The notes beneath the pieces were generated by a model. It was not told the DNA's origin. It did not search any database and saw nothing but the letters and a program-made list of their open reading frames with translations. Of a DNA stretch of 44,816 nucleotides, positions 1 to 29,805 are shown piece by piece. The stretch spans positions 1-44,816 of the forward strand of contig JAKSOF010000004.1 in NCBI GenBank assembly GCA_024405735.1. The letters are read 5' to 3'. Numbering within the stretch: the first letter of the stretch is position 1; each line of letters opens with the position of its first letter. Both the position numbers and the translations under genes were made by a program. This DNA comes from Victivallaceae bacterium. GTDB lineage: Bacteria; Verrucomicrobiota; Lentisphaeria; Victivallales; Victivallaceae.

Positions 1-220
1 TCGCACATCAGGCAGTCGGGCGGGCGAAGCGGCAGAGCGAAGCATTAGCCCGCGTAGGACGCCCGTCCTCTTTGCGGTAACAAATATAGACGACCGCGGA
101 GATTTGCGGGGACATTCGTTTAGAGCGCGGACAAACGATTATCCGCAAATATCTGCGGCAGTGCAAAGTCCAGCCCGTGGCTGGTTGGGGGTGTTGAGAG
201 GGGCGAAATCAGCCCCTCTC
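1..220 (-). repeat. Structured intergenic repeat A, copy 1 (cut by window edge)
   Basis: This stretch has no convincing gene. Its reverse complement matches 27827-28050 over its whole length, roughly four bases in five by eye. It contains nested palindromes: a perfect 9-bp stem at 196-204/212-220 with a 7-nt loop, a 6-bp CCAGCC/GGCTGG hairpin near 171-185, and a pair of CCGC-rich segments (about 92-109 and 141-158) that can pair with each other. It lies just downstream of the SIMPL-protein stop codon, so the 196-220 hairpin could also end that transcript, although no T-tract follows. The left boundary is unknown because the window starts inside it. Confidence 0.75.
196..220 (-). other. Perfect 9-bp hairpin of repeat A, 30 nt past the SIMPL gene stop
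   Basis: The left arm at 196-204 and right arm at 212-220 pair perfectly around a 7-nt loop. The equivalent hairpin in the other copy (27827-27851) has the same loop read on the repeat strand, and its outermost pair is changed on both sides (G-C to A-T), so pairing is kept. It may work as a transcript end or RNA-stability element for the neighbouring gene, but there is no U-tract to make it a classical terminator. Confidence 0.55.
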
Positions 221-249
221 GTTCCCATCACATCAATGGCACTATATCC

Positions 250-10756: not shown

Positions 10757-11495
10757 GGTCGAAGTACCAGTAAAGCAGCGCCCCCGTCGGCACCAGTACG
10801 ATGCCGATCAGTTGCGCGATCGTGAAAAGACCGAAATAATGGTAGTTGTCCCCTCGGAAAAATTCGTTGATGAAGCGCAAAATACCGTAAAGCACAAAGT
10901 ATGCCGCCACCGTCGTGCCGCGTTTGCCCTTTTTCACGATCGCAAGCAAAATAAACAATACGACCAGATTTTCCGCCGTTTCAAACAGCTGGATCGGGTA
11001 ACGCGCCAAACCGTCCTGAAACTCCGGCGCCGTCGTTTTCGGATAGATCACGCCGAGCGCGCTATGGGTCACTTTGCCGTAACAGCAACCGTTGAGAAAA
11101 CAGCCGACGCGCCCGAACGCGTGCCCCAAAACCAACGCTATCGCCGCCAGATCAAGCAACCGGATGAAATCCCGTTTCTGCACTTTTGACCATATCCACA
11201 ATACCGGGATCGCCAGAAATCCGCCGTAAAACACCAACCCGCCGTGGTCGATCCGCACGATCTCCCACAGATTGTCGCGGTATTCGTCGAAAAATTGCAC
11301 CACATAAAAGATCCGCGCCCCGATCACCCCGGAAATGATCGTGACCAACAGCATCGACGACACCTGATCCGACGTGAGATCCGCGTGCTTGCGGCAACGG
11401 TTCACGATCCACGTCGCCGCCAGAAATCCCAATGCCGCCATCACCCCGTACCAGCGGACTTGCAATGCCCCGATCTGAAATGCTATCGGATTCAT
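10734..11495 (-). CDS. lgt: Prolipoprotein diacylglyceryl transferase
   Basis: The product is 253 aa with several membrane segments. It transfers diacylglycerol from phosphatidylglycerol to the lipobox cysteine of prolipoproteins at the inner membrane. The Lgt signature is at residues 125-140 ('HAFGRVGCFLNGCCYG'), preceded by the typical N-terminal 'VRWYGVMAALGF' and 'DHGGLVFYGG' segments and followed by 'RYPIQLFE' and 'LRFINEFFRGD'. A lipoprotein substrate is encoded in the window at 18402-20162. The start has an AAAGGATGA region upstream. A TATATT -10 lies near 11541, but its -35 is weak. It overlaps the downstream pseudouridine synthase by 23 bp. Confidence 0.97.
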   Translation of the reverse strand: MNPIAFQIGALQVRWYGVMAALGFLAATWIVNRCRKHADLTSDQVSSMLLVTIISGVIGARIFYVVQFFDEYRDNLWEIVRIDHGGLVFYGGFLAIPVLWIWSKVQKRDFIRLLDLAAIALVLGHAFGRVGCFLNGCCYGKVTHSALGVIYPKTTAPEFQDGLARYPIQLFETAENLVVLFILLAIVKKGKRGTTVAAYFVLYGILRFINEFFRGDNYHYFGLFTIAQLIGIVLVPTGALLYWYFDHGAREKN

Positions 11496-11621
11496 GATCT
11501 ATCATCCTTTCATTCCGCAAAAAATCTTCTTTTTTCCTTAATATACACTTTTTTTGCAAAAAATGCGATTGCTCAATGGATTTTTTTTCAAAATGAGGCT
11601 ATTTTATAACTCGTTCCCGGT

Positions 11622-11695
11622 AACCCCGTGGTGTAATGGTAGCACAACTGGTTTTGGTCCAGTTAGTCTAGGTTCGAATCCTGGCGGGGTTGCCA
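11622..11695 (+). tRNA. tRNA-Gln (anticodon UUG, CCA encoded)
   Basis: A complete 74-nt cloverleaf can be drawn. The acceptor AACCCCG pairs with CGGGGTT, the anticodon stem ACTGG/CCAGT holds the loop TTTTGGT with anticodon TTG, and the T arm CTAGG/CCTGG holds TTCGAAT. The discriminator is G and the CCA is encoded. A strong terminator follows 38 nt after the 3' end. It is the only tRNA in the window and sits at the head of a repeat array. Confidence 0.97.
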
Positions 11696-11733
11696 TCTAT
11701 GGCTTCTGTACGCCGAGAATCATGCGTATAAAC

Positions 11734-24778: not shown

Positions 24779-27754
24779 ATGATCAATTTTATCCTCAAGC
24801 TGATTTTCGGCAGCAAATCCAAACGCGACCTCAAAAAAATGTGGCCGCTCGTCGACAAGATCAATGCGATCGAAGTCGAGTACCAGAAACTTTCCGACGA
24901 GGAATTGCAGGCCAACACGGTCAAATTCAAAGAACGTCTCGCCAACGGCGAAACGCTCGATGACATCATGTGCGAAGCTTTCGCCACCGTCAAGAATGCC
25001 TGCCGCCGCCTTGTCGGCAAGGAATTCGAGGTTTGCGGTCAAACGATCCGCTGGGATATGATCCCTTTCGACGTCCAGTTGGTCGGCGGTATCGCGCTTC
25101 ACCGCGGCAACATCGCCGAAATGGCGACGGGCGAAGGCAAAACGCTGGTCGCGACTTTGCCGCTTTACCTCAATGCGCTGACCGGTAAAAACTGTCAGCT
25201 CGTCACCGTCAACGATTACCTCGCCTTGCGCGACTCCTCCTGGATGGGGCAGATTTTCAGGTTTCTCGGGCTTACCGTCGGCTGTCTGCAGAATATGCAG
25301 CCTCCGGACGTGCGCCGCGAGCAGTACAACTGCGACATCACCTACGGCACCAACAGCGAATTCGGCTTCGACTATCTGCGCGACATGGGCATGGCGACGG
25401 AAAAAGAACAGCTTGTCCAGCGCGATCACTACTACGCCATCATCGACGAGATCGACAGCATCCTGATCGACGAAGCGCGGACGCCGCTCATCATTTCCGG
25501 TCCGGTGCCGAGTTCCGACAACCAGTTCGATGAACTTCAGCCGCTGGTCGCCTCGCTTTACAGCAAGCAGAACCTCTTTTGCTCGCGGCTCGCCAATGAG
25601 GCGCGGAGCGTGCTCGCCAATGAAAAGGCTTCCCCCGGGGAACGCGATGCCGCGCTCGTCAAACTGCTTCAAATCAAATTCGGGATGCCGACCCACAAGC
25701 AGTTGCTCCGCATCCTCGAAGACGGCGAGATCCTCAAGGAACTGGAAAAAGTCGAGTCGCGCGTCCACAGTGACAACAACCGCGGTTTGTTGCAGGAAGT
25801 GCAGAGCGACCTCTTTTTCGTCATCGACGAAAAGACCCACGAAGCCGACCTTACCGCCAAGGGCCGTCACGAGATCTCACCCGACGACCCCGCGGCTTTC
25901 ATCGTCCCCGATCTCCTCGGCGAGATCCACAAGATCGACACCGACGAGGAACTTTCCGACGAGGAAAAGGTGACGCGCAAAAACGAATTTCAGGAGGAAT
26001 TCGCCGCCAAGAGCGAAAGGCTCCACGATCTGTCGCAGTTGCTCAAGGCGTACTGCTTGTTTGAAAAGGACGTCAACTACGTCGTCCAGGACCGCAAAGT
26101 CCTTATCGTCGACGAGCATACCGGCCGTCTGATGCCGGGTCGCCGCTTTTCCGACGGTCTCCATCAGGCGCTTGAAGCCAAGGAGCAAGTCCCCATCGAG
26201 CAGGAAACCCAGACGATGGCGACGATCACGATCCAGAACTACTTCCGCATGTACAAAAAACTTGCCGGTATGACCGGTACGGCGGAAACGGAAGCCGCCG
26301 AGTTTCAGGAGATCTACAAACTCGACGTCATCGTCATCCCGACCAACCGTCCCTGCATCCGCAAGGACGAAAACGACTCCATTTTCAAGACCAAGCGCGA
26401 AAAATACAACGCGATCATCAAAGATGTGATCGAGCGGCACGGCAAAGGACAGCCGGTCTTGCTCGGCACGATCTCGGTCGAGGATTCGGAGATCCTGTCG
26501 CGTATGCTCAAAATGCGCAACATCGTCCACAACGTCCTGAACGCCAAAAACCATCAGCACGAAGCCGAGATCGTCGCCCGCGCCGGCACGGTCGGCGCCG
26601 TCACCGTCGCCACCAACATGGCGGGGCGCGGCACCGACATCAAACTTGCCCCCGGCGTCGCCGAACTCGGCGGCTTGCACGTCATCGGTTCGTCGCGTCA
26701 CGATTCGCGCCGCATCGACCGCCAGTTGCGCGGCCGCTGCTCGCGTCAGGGCGACCCCGGTTCCTCCAAGTTCTACGTTTCGCTCGAAGACAATTTAATG
26801 CGTCTTTTCGGCAGCGACCGGATCGTCAAGATCTTTGAACGCTTCGGCTTGGAAGAGGGCGACGAATTACAGCATCCCTGGCTCAACAAGTCGATCGAAA
26901 CCGCCCAGCGCCGCGTCGAGCAACAGCACTTCGCCATCCGCAAACGCACGCTCGATTTCGACGATGTGATGAATAAACAGCGCGAGATCATCTATCAGCT
27001 CCGGCGCGATGCGCTTCTTTCCGAAACGCCCGGCGACGTCCTTTTCGGCATCATCGAGCAAGTCGTCGAAGAAGAGATCCTCAAAGCCGGAGAAAGCGCC
27101 GCCGACGGCAAAAAAGCGGAGTTCGATTTCCCGAAACTCCTCGCTTACCTCAACACGACTTTCCCGCTCAATTTCCAGCAGTCGGAGTTGACCGAAGGCA
27201 TCGAAAACGGCCATCTTGCCGACGCCGAAAAACTGACCTTGCAGATCGTCGACCGCATCGAAGCCGCGTATCAGGAGCGCAACCGCGATCTCCCCGAAAA
27301 CGAATTCGATTATCTGCGCCGCCACACGGTATTGGAAGCCATCGACCGGCTCTGGCAGGAGCATCTCTACGCGATGGACAATCTGCGCTCCAGTATGTCG
27401 CTCCGCGTTTACGCGCAGAAAGATCCCCTCGTCGAATACAAACACGAGGCTTTCGGCATTTTCAAGGCGATGATGGATCAGATCTACCGCGATGTCGCCC
27501 ACAGCCTTTTCCGCGTCACGATGACAAGGCTCTCCAGTCTGGAGGAACTGCTCGCCTCCATGCCGCAGGAAATGGTGCATCAGACTTTCGGTCAGTTCGC
27601 CGTGCCGCAGGAAGACGCTCTCCCCTCTCCGCAGGAGGAAAAAGCGCCTGAGATCCTGCCCTTTCACCGCGAAGCCCCCAAAGTCGGACGCAACGATCTC
27701 TGTCCTTGCGGCAGCGGTAAGAAATACAAAAAGTGTTGCGGCAAAAACGCCTGA
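24779..27754 (+). CDS. secA: Protein translocase ATPase SecA
   Basis: The product is 991 aa. It is the ATP-driven motor that pushes preproteins through SecYEG. Walker A is 'MATGEGKT' at 115-122 and the DEAD-like motif is in 'IIDEIDSILIDEARTPLIISG'. 'LAGMTGTA' and 'ATNMAGRGTDI' mark the second motor domain, and 'RQLRGRCSRQGDPGSS' the coupling region. The C-terminus has the zinc/SecB-binding tail 'CPCGSGKKYKKCCG'. An extra charged segment of roughly 130 residues (about 295-425) follows the DEAD motif, making it longer than E. coli SecA (901). No Shine-Dalgarno is visible before ATG 24779, so translation may depend on coupling with pyrE, 17 nt upstream. Confidence 0.98.
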   Translation: MINFILKLIFGSKSKRDLKKMWPLVDKINAIEVEYQKLSDEELQANTVKFKERLANGETLDDIMCEAFATVKNACRRLVGKEFEVCGQTIRWDMIPFDVQLVGGIALHRGNIAEMATGEGKTLVATLPLYLNALTGKNCQLVTVNDYLALRDSSWMGQIFRFLGLTVGCLQNMQPPDVRREQYNCDITYGTNSEFGFDYLRDMGMATEKEQLVQRDHYYAIIDEIDSILIDEARTPLIISGPVPSSDNQFDELQPLVASLYSKQNLFCSRLANEARSVLANEKASPGERDAALVKLLQIKFGMPTHKQLLRILEDGEILKELEKVESRVHSDNNRGLLQEVQSDLFFVIDEKTHEADLTAKGRHEISPDDPAAFIVPDLLGEIHKIDTDEELSDEEKVTRKNEFQEEFAAKSERLHDLSQLLKAYCLFEKDVNYVVQDRKVLIVDEHTGRLMPGRRFSDGLHQALEAKEQVPIEQETQTMATITIQNYFRMYKKLAGMTGTAETEAAEFQEIYKLDVIVIPTNRPCIRKDENDSIFKTKREKYNAIIKDVIERHGKGQPVLLGTISVEDSEILSRMLKMRNIVHNVLNAKNHQHEAEIVARAGTVGAVTVATNMAGRGTDIKLAPGVAELGGLHVIGSSRHDSRRIDRQLRGRCSRQGDPGSSKFYVSLEDNLMRLFGSDRIVKIFERFGLEEGDELQHPWLNKSIETAQRRVEQQHFAIRKRTLDFDDVMNKQREIIYQLRRDALLSETPGDVLFGIIEQVVEEEILKAGESAADGKKAEFDFPKLLAYLNTTFPLNFQQSELTEGIENGHLADAEKLTLQIVDRIEAAYQERNRDLPENEFDYLRRHTVLEAIDRLWQEHLYAMDNLRSSMSLRVYAQKDPLVEYKHEAFGIFKAMMDQIYRDVAHSLFRVTMTRLSSLEELLASMPQEMVHQTFGQFAVPQEDALPSPQEEKAPEILPFHREAPKVGRNDLCPCGSGKKYKKCCGKNA

Positions 27755-27774
27755 AGAGAAGCATCCATATTGAC

Positions 27775-27810
27775 AAGGCTGTTGCATCTCATGAAGCAAC
27801 AGCCTTTTTT
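27775..27810 (+). terminator. Intrinsic terminator of secA
   Basis: AAGGCTGTTGC (27775-27785) pairs perfectly with 27796-27806 around a 10-nt loop and ends in T6 (27805-27810). It shares the GGCTGTTGC core with the terminators at 6677 and 14585. Confidence 0.9.
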
Positions 27811-27826
27811 CATACGTGATTGGAGC

Positions 27827-28050
27827 AAGAGGGGCTGATTTCGCCCCTCTTGACACCCTCAACCAGCCACAGGCTGGATTTTGTACTGCCGCAGATATTT
27901 GCGGACTGACGCTTTTATTGCACTCACGACGAATATCTCCGCAAATCTCCGCGGGCTCGTCTGTTTGTTACCGCAAAAAGGGCGGGCGTCCCACGCGGGC
28001 TAATACTTTGCGCTTTCGCGCGCCGTCCGCCCGACTGCCCGAGATGCGAT
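27827..28050 (+). repeat. Structured intergenic repeat A, copy 2 (inverted relative to copy 1)
   Basis: This copy matches the reverse complement of 1-220. It starts with a perfect 9-bp hairpin (27827-27835/27843-27851), then a CCAGCC/GGCTGG hairpin, then CCGC-rich segments that pair across about 45 nt, and ends with GCCCGACTGCCCGA. That end sequence recurs once more at about 28232-28245. With repeat B it fills the gap between the secA terminator and the stop of the D-aminoacylase gene; I see no gene in 27755-28290. Confidence 0.8.
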
Positions 28051-28054
28051 ACTC

Positions 28055-28217
28055 TCCACGCTGATGTTTCTCTCGCCCTGCCGGGCGAAATAAAGGCGGA
28101 AACGGACGGTAACGGACTTTAACGGACAATTAACGTAATGAGGAAAGGATAAAATCACGCAATGGTGACACGTCCGTTTTGTCCGTAAAAGTCCGTAGAG
28201 GATGACAACGCAGTTGC
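28055..28217 (+). repeat. Dispersed intergenic repeat B, copy 2
   Basis: This matches the reverse complement of 12263-12412. Visible parts are CGCCCTGCCGGGCG (hairpin), four AACGGAC-like heptamers between about 28098 and 28130, the core AATGAGGAAAGGATAAAATC, and TTTTGTCCGTAAAAGTCCGT near the end. Here it directly follows repeat A, whereas the 12-kb copy follows tandem array C, so A and B are separable modules. Confidence 0.8.
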
Positions 28218-28290
28218 TCTGTTACGCCGTGACAAGCCGCCCGACTGCCCGATGTGTGACACACCCCTCGCCAATGTTGCTCCCGCTTCG

Positions 28291-29805
28291 TCACGCCTGA
28301 TAGACGATCCCGCCCTGATGAATGGTAAACAAAATGCCGTCGGCGATGCGGCATGGGTTTGTGAAATCGGCGAAACTGTTGATCGTTTCGGGATCGAATG
28401 CGACGAGATCGGCGGCGGCGCCGACGGCGATTTTTCCGGCATCCAACTGAAATGTCTGCGCGGGGAGACCGGTGGCGCGGTAAACGCTTCGGGCAATATC
28501 GCCCGTCCGGTCGAGCCGGAGGCGTAAAAACCGGGCGATCGCGCCGAAAGCGCGGGGATGGGTGCCGTTGGGGTCGCCGGAAACGGGAAGCGCATTCCCG
28601 TCACTGCCGGGCATACAATAGTCCAGATCGAGGATGCGCTCAAGATTTTCGCGGGACATCCCGGAAAAGGCGGCGGTCGTACCGGGAGCGTCGTGCCGGA
28701 GCAATTCGACGACGAGCATTGCGGGATCAGCGGAAATCCCGGCAAGGAATTTTCCGGAATCGGCGCGATGATTTCCCGTCGTGGAAACCAGACGGACGCC
28801 CTGCCAGTAACCGGGAGCGCGAGCGGCGCGCAGATCGGCGGCAAGTTGACGGCACTCTTCATCATTTTGGAGTTTCTGCTGGATCGTCCGGTCGGGAAGC
28901 GCATCCCATTTCCCGGGCAGGACGACGCTCAACTGGGTCATCGACTCGGTATAGGGATAGCGGTCAACGGTCACGCGGATATTTTCCGCGCGCGCCTTTT
29001 CGATCAGCGCAATGGCGGCGTCAAGTTTTCCCCAGTTGTCGCGTCCGGCGGTCTTGAAATGACTGATCTGAATGCGCTTCAATCCGGCGGCGCGGGCGGC
29101 GGCAAGCGTTTCTTCGAGAGATTCGAGCAACGTCTTACCTTCACTCCGCAAATGGGTGGTAAAAATTTTGTCGTGCCGGGAAACGACGCGCATCAATTCG
29201 ACCAATTCCCCCGTCGTGGCAAAGATACCGGGCACATAGAGCAATCCGGCAGAAAGCCCGACCGCCCCCTGCTTCAGTTGCGCGTCAAGCAACGCGCACA
29301 TATCCTGTAACTCCGTTTCGGAAAGTTTTTCCTTTTCGTACCCCGCGATCGCCGCGCGCAGCGAATTGTGTCCGCAGAGCGCGGGCAAATTCAAAGCGAC
29401 GCCGCGTTTTTTCAGCGCGGTCTGAAAAGAACGGTAATCCCGCCACGCCAGAGGATAATTGTAGTTCGCATAAAGATTTTCAAGGTGCGCGCGGTTGCGC
29501 CCGGAAAGACAAAACGCGCAAAGCCCGCAATTTCCGGCGATCTCGGTCGTCACCCCCTGGGAAACTTTGGAAAATCCGTCGGGATGCGCCAGCAACGCGA
29601 GATCGGAATGTCCGTGCGCATCAATGAAACCGGGGGCAAGCACCTGCTTACGCAAATCGATTGTCCGGTCAGCGGCGGCGCCGCCGGAAACGTCCTTGCC
29701 GACGGCGGAAACCGTACCGCCGGAAATCAGGACTTCGCCTTTGAAAAGCGGAGCGCCGCTCCCGTCGGCGATCCAGGCGTTACTGATTTTGAGCGAGGAT
29801 CTCAT
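28291..29805 (-). CDS. N-acyl-D-amino-acid deacylase family amidohydrolase
   Basis: The product is 504 aa. Enzymes of this family remove the acyl group from N-acyl-D-amino acids (or D-glutamate derivatives) with a zinc centre. The metal site is readable: H64-x-H66 in 'DAHGHSD', Cys93 in 'EIAGNCG', the later His in 'THLRSEG' and 'ISHFK', and the closing Asp in 'CMPGSDG'. The N-terminal beta-sandwich strand 'NAWIADGSGAP' is typical. No signal peptide is present, so it is cytosolic; a role in recycling D-amino acids from peptidoglycan is inferred. The ATG at 29805 lies 26 nt inside the end of the debranching-enzyme gene, so the two are cotranscribed. The frame is open far upstream but only as a shadow of that gene. 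Confidence 0.9.
   Translation of the reverse strand: MRSSLKISNAWIADGSGAPLFKGEVLISGGTVSAVGKDVSGGAAADRTIDLRKQVLAPGFIDAHGHSDLALLAHPDGFSKVSQGVTTEIAGNCGLCAFCLSGRNRAHLENLYANYNYPLAWRDYRSFQTALKKRGVALNLPALCGHNSLRAAIAGYEKEKLSETELQDMCALLDAQLKQGAVGLSAGLLYVPGIFATTGELVELMRVVSRHDKIFTTHLRSEGKTLLESLEETLAAARAAGLKRIQISHFKTAGRDNWGKLDAAIALIEKARAENIRVTVDRYPYTESMTQLSVVLPGKWDALPDRTIQQKLQNDEECRQLAADLRAARAPGYWQGVRLVSTTGNHRADSGKFLAGISADPAMLVVELLRHDAPGTTAAFSGMSRENLERILDLDYCMPGSDGNALPVSGDPNGTHPRAFGAIARFLRLRLDRTGDIARSVYRATGLPAQTFQLDAGKIAVGAAADLVAFDPETINSFADFTNPCRIADGILFTIHQGGIVYQA

Follow-up and report, generated by a model that had tools for sequence, protein, structure and literature searches.

The BOX repeats of Streptococcus pneumoniae are modular structured repeats of 67–637 bp, and in the sections of the source that treat their placement, BOX and SPRITE repeats are over-represented between convergent genes, with SPRITE repeats lying near the 3′ ends of coding sequences (PMC3049150). 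REP sequences, as described in parts of two reports, are 20–40 bp long and are marked at one end by the tetranucleotide GTAG or CGTC (PMC2817692, PMC3733652). Acido-Lenti-1 RNA (RF01687) is recorded, in the part of its source that concerns it, from Acidobacteria and Lentisphaerae (PMC2864571). By title, nothing on repeats of the Victivallales lineage was present among the matches listed from the open-licence PMC literature.

We analysed a stretch of 44,816 nt, called here the window, which forms positions 1–44816 of contig C21 in a host genome (G000) of 1.89 Mb and 26 contigs. The nearest relatives of its SecA protein belong to Victivallales/Lentisphaeria MAGs, several of which carry names referring to samples of animal gut or faeces. 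The window holds two copies of a repeat that consists of a body, containing the stem P1, and a tail made up of a linker (GTACAAA or similar) and the hairpins P2 and P3, the latter closed by a loop of seven bases. The repeat is multi-copy, structured and modular and lies mainly between convergent genes, and so belongs among BOX-like modular interspersed structured repeats. We consider it probable that it represents a non-autonomous, modular, non-coding interspersed repeat family whose copies insert, or persist, tail-first behind the ends of genes, with a structure that is probably read as RNA. The family appears to be a new one of small mobile repeats, matched by no Rfam family.

BOX and SPRITE repeats, as far as their description in PMC3049150 goes, are nearest in behaviour, sharing the modular structure, the location between convergent genes and the place at gene 3′ ends. 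The likeness is one of description, and the phylum is another; compared with that description, the Victivallales repeat has a constant, gene-end-oriented tail on different bodies, and no U-rich tract follows P3. With REP and BIME sequences and their RAYT, in the relevant parts of the reports, it shares high-copy intergenic hairpins, complementary stem changes and mosaics (PMC2817692, PMC3733652). It differs from them in that no Y1 transposase gene flanked by tails was found in the incomplete genomes of the genus, and in that the tag next to P3 is missing in nearly all copies. Among 39 copies, neither GTAG, GTGG nor CGTC occurred 5′ of P3 (GGAG did in 25 of 39), and CTAC was found 3′ of P3 in none of these 39 sequences, which end about 10 nt beyond the hairpin. 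With longer flanks, CGTC lay within 8 nt 3′ of P3 in 1 of 40 copies, a figure that rises to 13 of 40 when up to 25 nt are allowed, and is thus not at the palindrome end. In the sequence covered by Rfam 15 scans at gathering and relaxed thresholds, tRNAs alone attained gathering score, weaker matches staying far below theirs, and Acido-Lenti-1 was absent among the matches of these scans. This is a copy-rich, structured family that Rfam does not contain, from a lineage that has been little studied and that counts many gut genomes among its relatives, and its orientation rule and shared tail make it a testable case for small repeats spreading without an enzyme of their own.

Two inverted copies and their fold

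The initial annotation had reported that the reverse complement of positions 1–220 matches 27827–28050, and BLAST bore this out. Copy A (1–230, plus strand; C21:92–231 in the covariance model R1 described below) and copy B (27816–28050, minus strand, found by both BLAST and R1) are 81% identical over about 230 nt, BLAST matching window positions 1–230 to 27817–28049 on the opposite strand with an E value of 1.7e-56. Copy A begins at base 1, the start of both the window and contig C21, and its 5′ side is therefore truncated by the assembly; the repeat extends further 5′ in many other copies. Next to copy B, positions 28051–28110 (minus strand) hold a 5′ extension common to several other copies, with a TTTCGC hairpin and GTCCGTTACCGTCCGTTT, and a 5′-part fragment of another copy lies at 28237–28286 (minus strand; 78% identity, E = 1.4e-4).

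On the plus strand of copy A, P1 spans 94–158 (arms 94–109 and 143–158, fifth pair G·U), P2 spans 170–184 and P3 spans 196–220, the P3 arms GAGAGGGGC (196–204) and GCCCCTCTC (212–220) enclosing the seven-base loop GAAATCA. On the minus strand of copy B, the R1 match and the fold place P1 at 27889–27954 (5′ arm 27939–27954, 3′ arm 27889–27904), P2 lies at 27863–27877, and the fold places P3 at 27826–27852, where 27826–27835 pairs with 27843–27852; this P3 reads AAGAGGGGC, GAAATCA, GCCCCTCTT (27827–27851 in plus coordinates). The two P3 hairpins have the same loop and the same eight pairs, and the ninth, outermost pair is formed by G-C in one copy and by A-T in its counterpart, exactly the compensatory change that had been claimed. 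Also as described earlier, both copies contain the CCAGCC/GGCTGG hairpin, which is P2, and the CCGC-rich long-range stem, which is P1. Cores of 142–143 nt from copies A and B gave folding z-scores of −5.7 and −5.6, with 0 of 200 dinucleotide shuffles folding equally well in each case.

R1 was built from an alignment, A1, of 37 of the 40 full copies in the host genome, L039, L041 and L191 being omitted. P1 has 15 pairs around a variable loop; 35 of the 37 copies carry a single G/A mismatch, and 99.5% of the A1 cells are paired. Its arms are near-invariant in G000, with a two-sided change in 1 of 15 pairs, a result equalled by 26 of 500 shuffles; since there is little covariation of P1 within its own genome, the support for this stem comes from other species. 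Six copies in G029 have changed letters above the base of P1 and retain the pairing, four of them having one or two mismatches, and a copy in G059 (L156) retains the lower eleven pairs with other letters, the upper part being unpaired in the simple register. The fifth pair is G·U in all seven of these rewritten stems; among the 37 own copies it is G·U in 25, A-U in 7, G-C in 3 and unpaired in 2. This comparison across species took in 12 rows, and did not count L044 or a second G059 copy (L161), whose P1 letters are nearly those of G000.

In the tail, P2 alternates between A-T and C-G (22 and 15 own copies, respectively), and P3 takes the form of 16 distinct 10-bp stems among 36 own copies, with 350 Watson-Crick, 8 G·U, 1 A·C and 1 other among 360 cells; the tally omits four of the 40 copies (L018, L041, L045 and L191) in which the register is shifted. 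In an alignment of 21 tails from seven genomes (A2), 10 of 15 pairs were changed on both sides. Pairing occurred in 90.3% of the A2 tail cells compared with 79.4% in shuffled alignments, none of 500 shuffles reaching as high, and fell to 40–64% when the partner was shifted by one to three columns, for an alignment that was picked by the analyst and a structure derived from that same alignment. Stems are not broken at random in the further copies, and the paired changes, together with the rewriting of stems in other species, support the conserved structure proposed at the outset. Hairpin arms may also become matched through DNA template switching; given this and the shared descent of the own copies, paired changes alone are no proof of selection.

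Three observations weakly favour an RNA read on the body-to-tail strand. Over P1 and P2, G·U pairs outnumber A·C pairs by 27 to 3, with 25 of the 27 coming from one pair, and P3 shows a like bias of 8 to 1; copy B folds better on the body-to-tail strand than on its complement (−61.5 versus −53.0); and the fifth P1 pair is G·U in three genomes. This support is weak because the copies are related by descent. The same three observations could be read as the mark of a transcribed, trans-acting small RNA family duplicated to about 40 loci, a reading we regard as very unlikely, as 5′ flanks vary among copies, no sigma-70-like site was found in 27700–28400, bodies are exchanged between species while the tail stays constant, and Rfam offers no match. 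A small RNA was among the options named in the initial annotation; the wobble-pair bias hints at RNA reading, and a free-standing small RNA is not demonstrated.

Position and orientation at gene ends

Both copies lie just downstream of genes, in agreement with the earlier description. At copy A, the tail points to the 3′ end of a minus-strand gene for a SIMPL-domain (DUF541) protein (250–999; Pfam PF04402, E = 8.1e-17), whose stop is at 250 and whose start at 999 is that of the gene caller, the open frame extending to 1275. Copy B lies in the 536-nt region between the SecA and amidohydrolase genes (27755–28290). The SecA stop at 27754 is followed by the gene's own terminator (27777–27810, plus strand; GGCTGTTGC...GCAACAGCC TTTTTT), directly ahead of the tail of copy B.

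The same orientation recurs throughout the family. Gene calls came from a simple codon-usage caller trained on nine window genes. Of 41 own copies examined, 40 have a called gene beyond the tail, and in 37 of these the gene lies on the opposite strand with its 3′ end toward the tail; the same holds for 27 of 29 tails (30 examined) from G029, G031, G034, G041, G048 and G059. The distance from tail to gene in the 37 own copies was 3–199 nt, and 20 nt or less in 16 of them. Where both neighbours of an own copy were called (33 copies), the genes were convergent in 23 cases, ran in the same direction in 10 and were never divergent, whereas convergent pairs make up 6 of the 31 in the window (Fisher p = 5e-5, against a background that is small and includes the copy B site). 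Between genes running in the same direction, the tail was turned toward the gene end in 16 cases versus 3 over all genomes (16/19, p = 0.0044), and in 8 versus 2 in the host genome (8/10, p = 0.11).

Such a placement could also be that of resident, REP/BIME-like gene-end elements with a host function, in which P3 blocks 3′-to-5′ mRNA decay or terminates the facing gene's transcript, with spread no more than a side effect. The excess of convergent sites fits this explanation, as do the 16 tails lying within 20 nt of the facing gene end, where, for example in 221–250, no other terminator is visible. However, 18 of the 40 own copies have an A-run of at least five within 70 nt beyond P3, as expected of a U-run terminator belonging to the facing gene, and those genes would not need P3. 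GCAACAGYCYTTTTT terminators occur away from copies as well, at 13 places altogether. Read in the secA direction, copy B's P2 is predicted to be terminator-like (plus strand, tail ATTTTGTACT), though two such sites were found in the stretch where 0.8 were expected by chance; P3, on the other hand, has no U-run in either direction. The orthologous gene pair also manages without the repeat in G059 and G058, and we consider a resident host element unlikely. The transcript-end element put forward in the initial annotation is thus right as to location, the copies being at gene 3′ ends, and not as to a U-run. P3 was rejected as an intrinsic terminator, as no U-run directly follows it and it is absent from the list of predicted terminators. 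It is a guess that P3, near a stop codon, could act for the host gene as a block at the mRNA 3′ end.

Distribution of the family and the secA site

A covariance-model search of the genome and its relatives, proposed earlier as a check, gave 40 full copies in G000 at E ≤ 1.5e-23, so the two in the window are not the only ones; weaker, reverse-strand and tail-only matches came in addition, and a further copy is truncated by a contig end (C7:52729–52818). BLAST in G000 gave at least 45 matches, five of which are short pieces of copies divided by an insert. When R1 was run on the 33 further genus genomes, four gave matches at E 0.001 (G029, G031, G042 and G059), and the strong whole-model matches outside G000 were two in G059 (E = 1.7e-19 and 4.0e-13), the best in G029 being 1.6e-10. 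A model of the tail, R2, reached further. With no more than 39 candidates scored in each genome, which makes the counts minimum figures, it had matches at E 1e-5 in 19 of the 137 genomes from the order, and these 19 belong to the same family as the host: 15 of 34 in the genus, three in a second genus and one in a third, where the matches outside the genus are model scores alone. In two genomes from another genus of the family, G019 and G020, at least 16 and at least 34 tail-model matches at E 1e-5 were seen, likewise as model scores. G034 has at least 28 tail matches, mostly of equal score and many close to contig ends, which suggests recent spread; copies at contig ends also suggest that the repeat breaks assemblies of such genomes. 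BLAST against phages and plasmids gave no match to the repeat, R1 gave one weak match (E = 0.06) over 23 IMG/VR stretches carrying a 16-mer found by pattern scan, and it gave none on 16 of 80 SecA loci.

The secA site offers a direct comparison of filled and short sites, which had been asked for as a search for empty sites in relatives. SecA and the amidohydrolase are convergent neighbours whose stop codons lie 536 nt apart in G000; G059 has 45 nt between them and G058 has 21 nt. In G059, where the C-terminal 300 residues of SecA are 85% identical, the 45-nt gap contains one terminator with a U-run, and in G058 a terminator-like hairpin overlaps the facing gene at the 21-nt gap; the 4,848-base secA locus of G058 is identical to part of contig L070. 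At this one site, the simplest reading is that the repeats were most likely gained in the lineage of the host genome. The relatives are too diverged here to define a target-site duplication, and the exact ends of the element are approximate. The filled and short secA sites, the restriction of strong body-A matches outside G000 to G059 and the recurrence of equal-score tails in G034 lead us to favour, of the three options in the initial annotation, the non-autonomous mobile repeat.

In G029 the amidohydrolase adjoins a different part of the genome, at a repeat-rich junction. One locus there (L274, G029:C6) joins the amidohydrolase to a homologue of window positions 10820–11696 with a repeat mosaic at the junction, and looks as if repeats had mediated a rearrangement.

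A shared tail and candidate enzymes

The tail of linker, P2 and P3 is common to at least two bodies besides that of copies A and B, termed body A. Body B carries the same tail in G034, G041, G031, G048 and some copies of G029, and body C carries it in G000, where some of its tails are without part of P2. Several mosaics end on their far side in an inverted tail, and a check for terminal inverted repeats showed that tail to be attached to another body. An element comprises a structured 5′ body, mostly body A with P1 in G000, and a constant 3′ tail joined to different bodies; it lies antisense to the gene it follows, tail nearest the gene and often past the gene's terminator. In the scheme we propose, elements would move with the aid, in trans, of an enzyme recognising the tail, would insert or persist chiefly behind the ends of genes, and may be selected for their structure as RNA on the body-to-tail strand. 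A bolder version, in which RNA-based mobile elements use a constant, enzyme-recognised two-hairpin tail to bring interchangeable, structured RNA bodies right behind the ends of genes in an almost invariable orientation, is one to which we give little credence.

Two kinds of enzyme were considered. Y1_Tnp gave 12 matches in 11 of the 34 genus genomes, whose assemblies are incomplete; G000 has just a broken remnant, and G034 and G029 gave no match. The tail model, run around all 12 loci, yielded no tail that convinces, its two partial matches being weak (E = 0.034 and 0.04). No transposase flanked by tails was found there, and a Y1 transposase as mobiliser is unsupported. Loci L186/L189 and L185/L190, from G000 and G059, hold fragments of Y1 transposase genes that have decayed and that look IS200-like on inspection.

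The host genome has one group-II-like reverse transcriptase ORF of 474 aa (G000:C10, L187:392–1816). Together with the constant tail, the changing bodies and some tail-only, 5′-shortened copies (C8:40763 and C26:36792), it brings to mind a retro-type element, comparable to a bacterial SINE, whose RNA is copied in at the tail. However, 5′-only pieces exist too (C21:28237 and C18:11925), of the three genomes searched for a reverse transcriptase, G000 included, G029 and G059 gave no match, and both of these carry the element, and neither element nor tail was found near the G000 gene. We think a retro-type origin highly improbable, and the reverse transcriptase is likewise unsupported as mobiliser. 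Group IIC introns are located behind transcription terminators, a likeness to the present repeat; the repeat differs from them in being short and antisense to the gene, and no intron RNA was detected at gathering score around the reverse transcriptase.

Body B (L253–L268, in G034, G041, G031 and G048) has a CGGGGGAAACTTCCCCCG-type hairpin, a GTGCGGCAACCG motif and a long hairpin with an AGAAAA-type loop; its stems are rewritten between species, and its copies are frequently at contig ends. Intergenic mosaics of 0.5–0.9 kb place body C (GGGGTGGTTAAGGCGGGGAAAGCC...) head-to-head with body A, as at about 540–1200 in L014 and in L020 and L042, and parts of these mosaics recur in L012 and L036.
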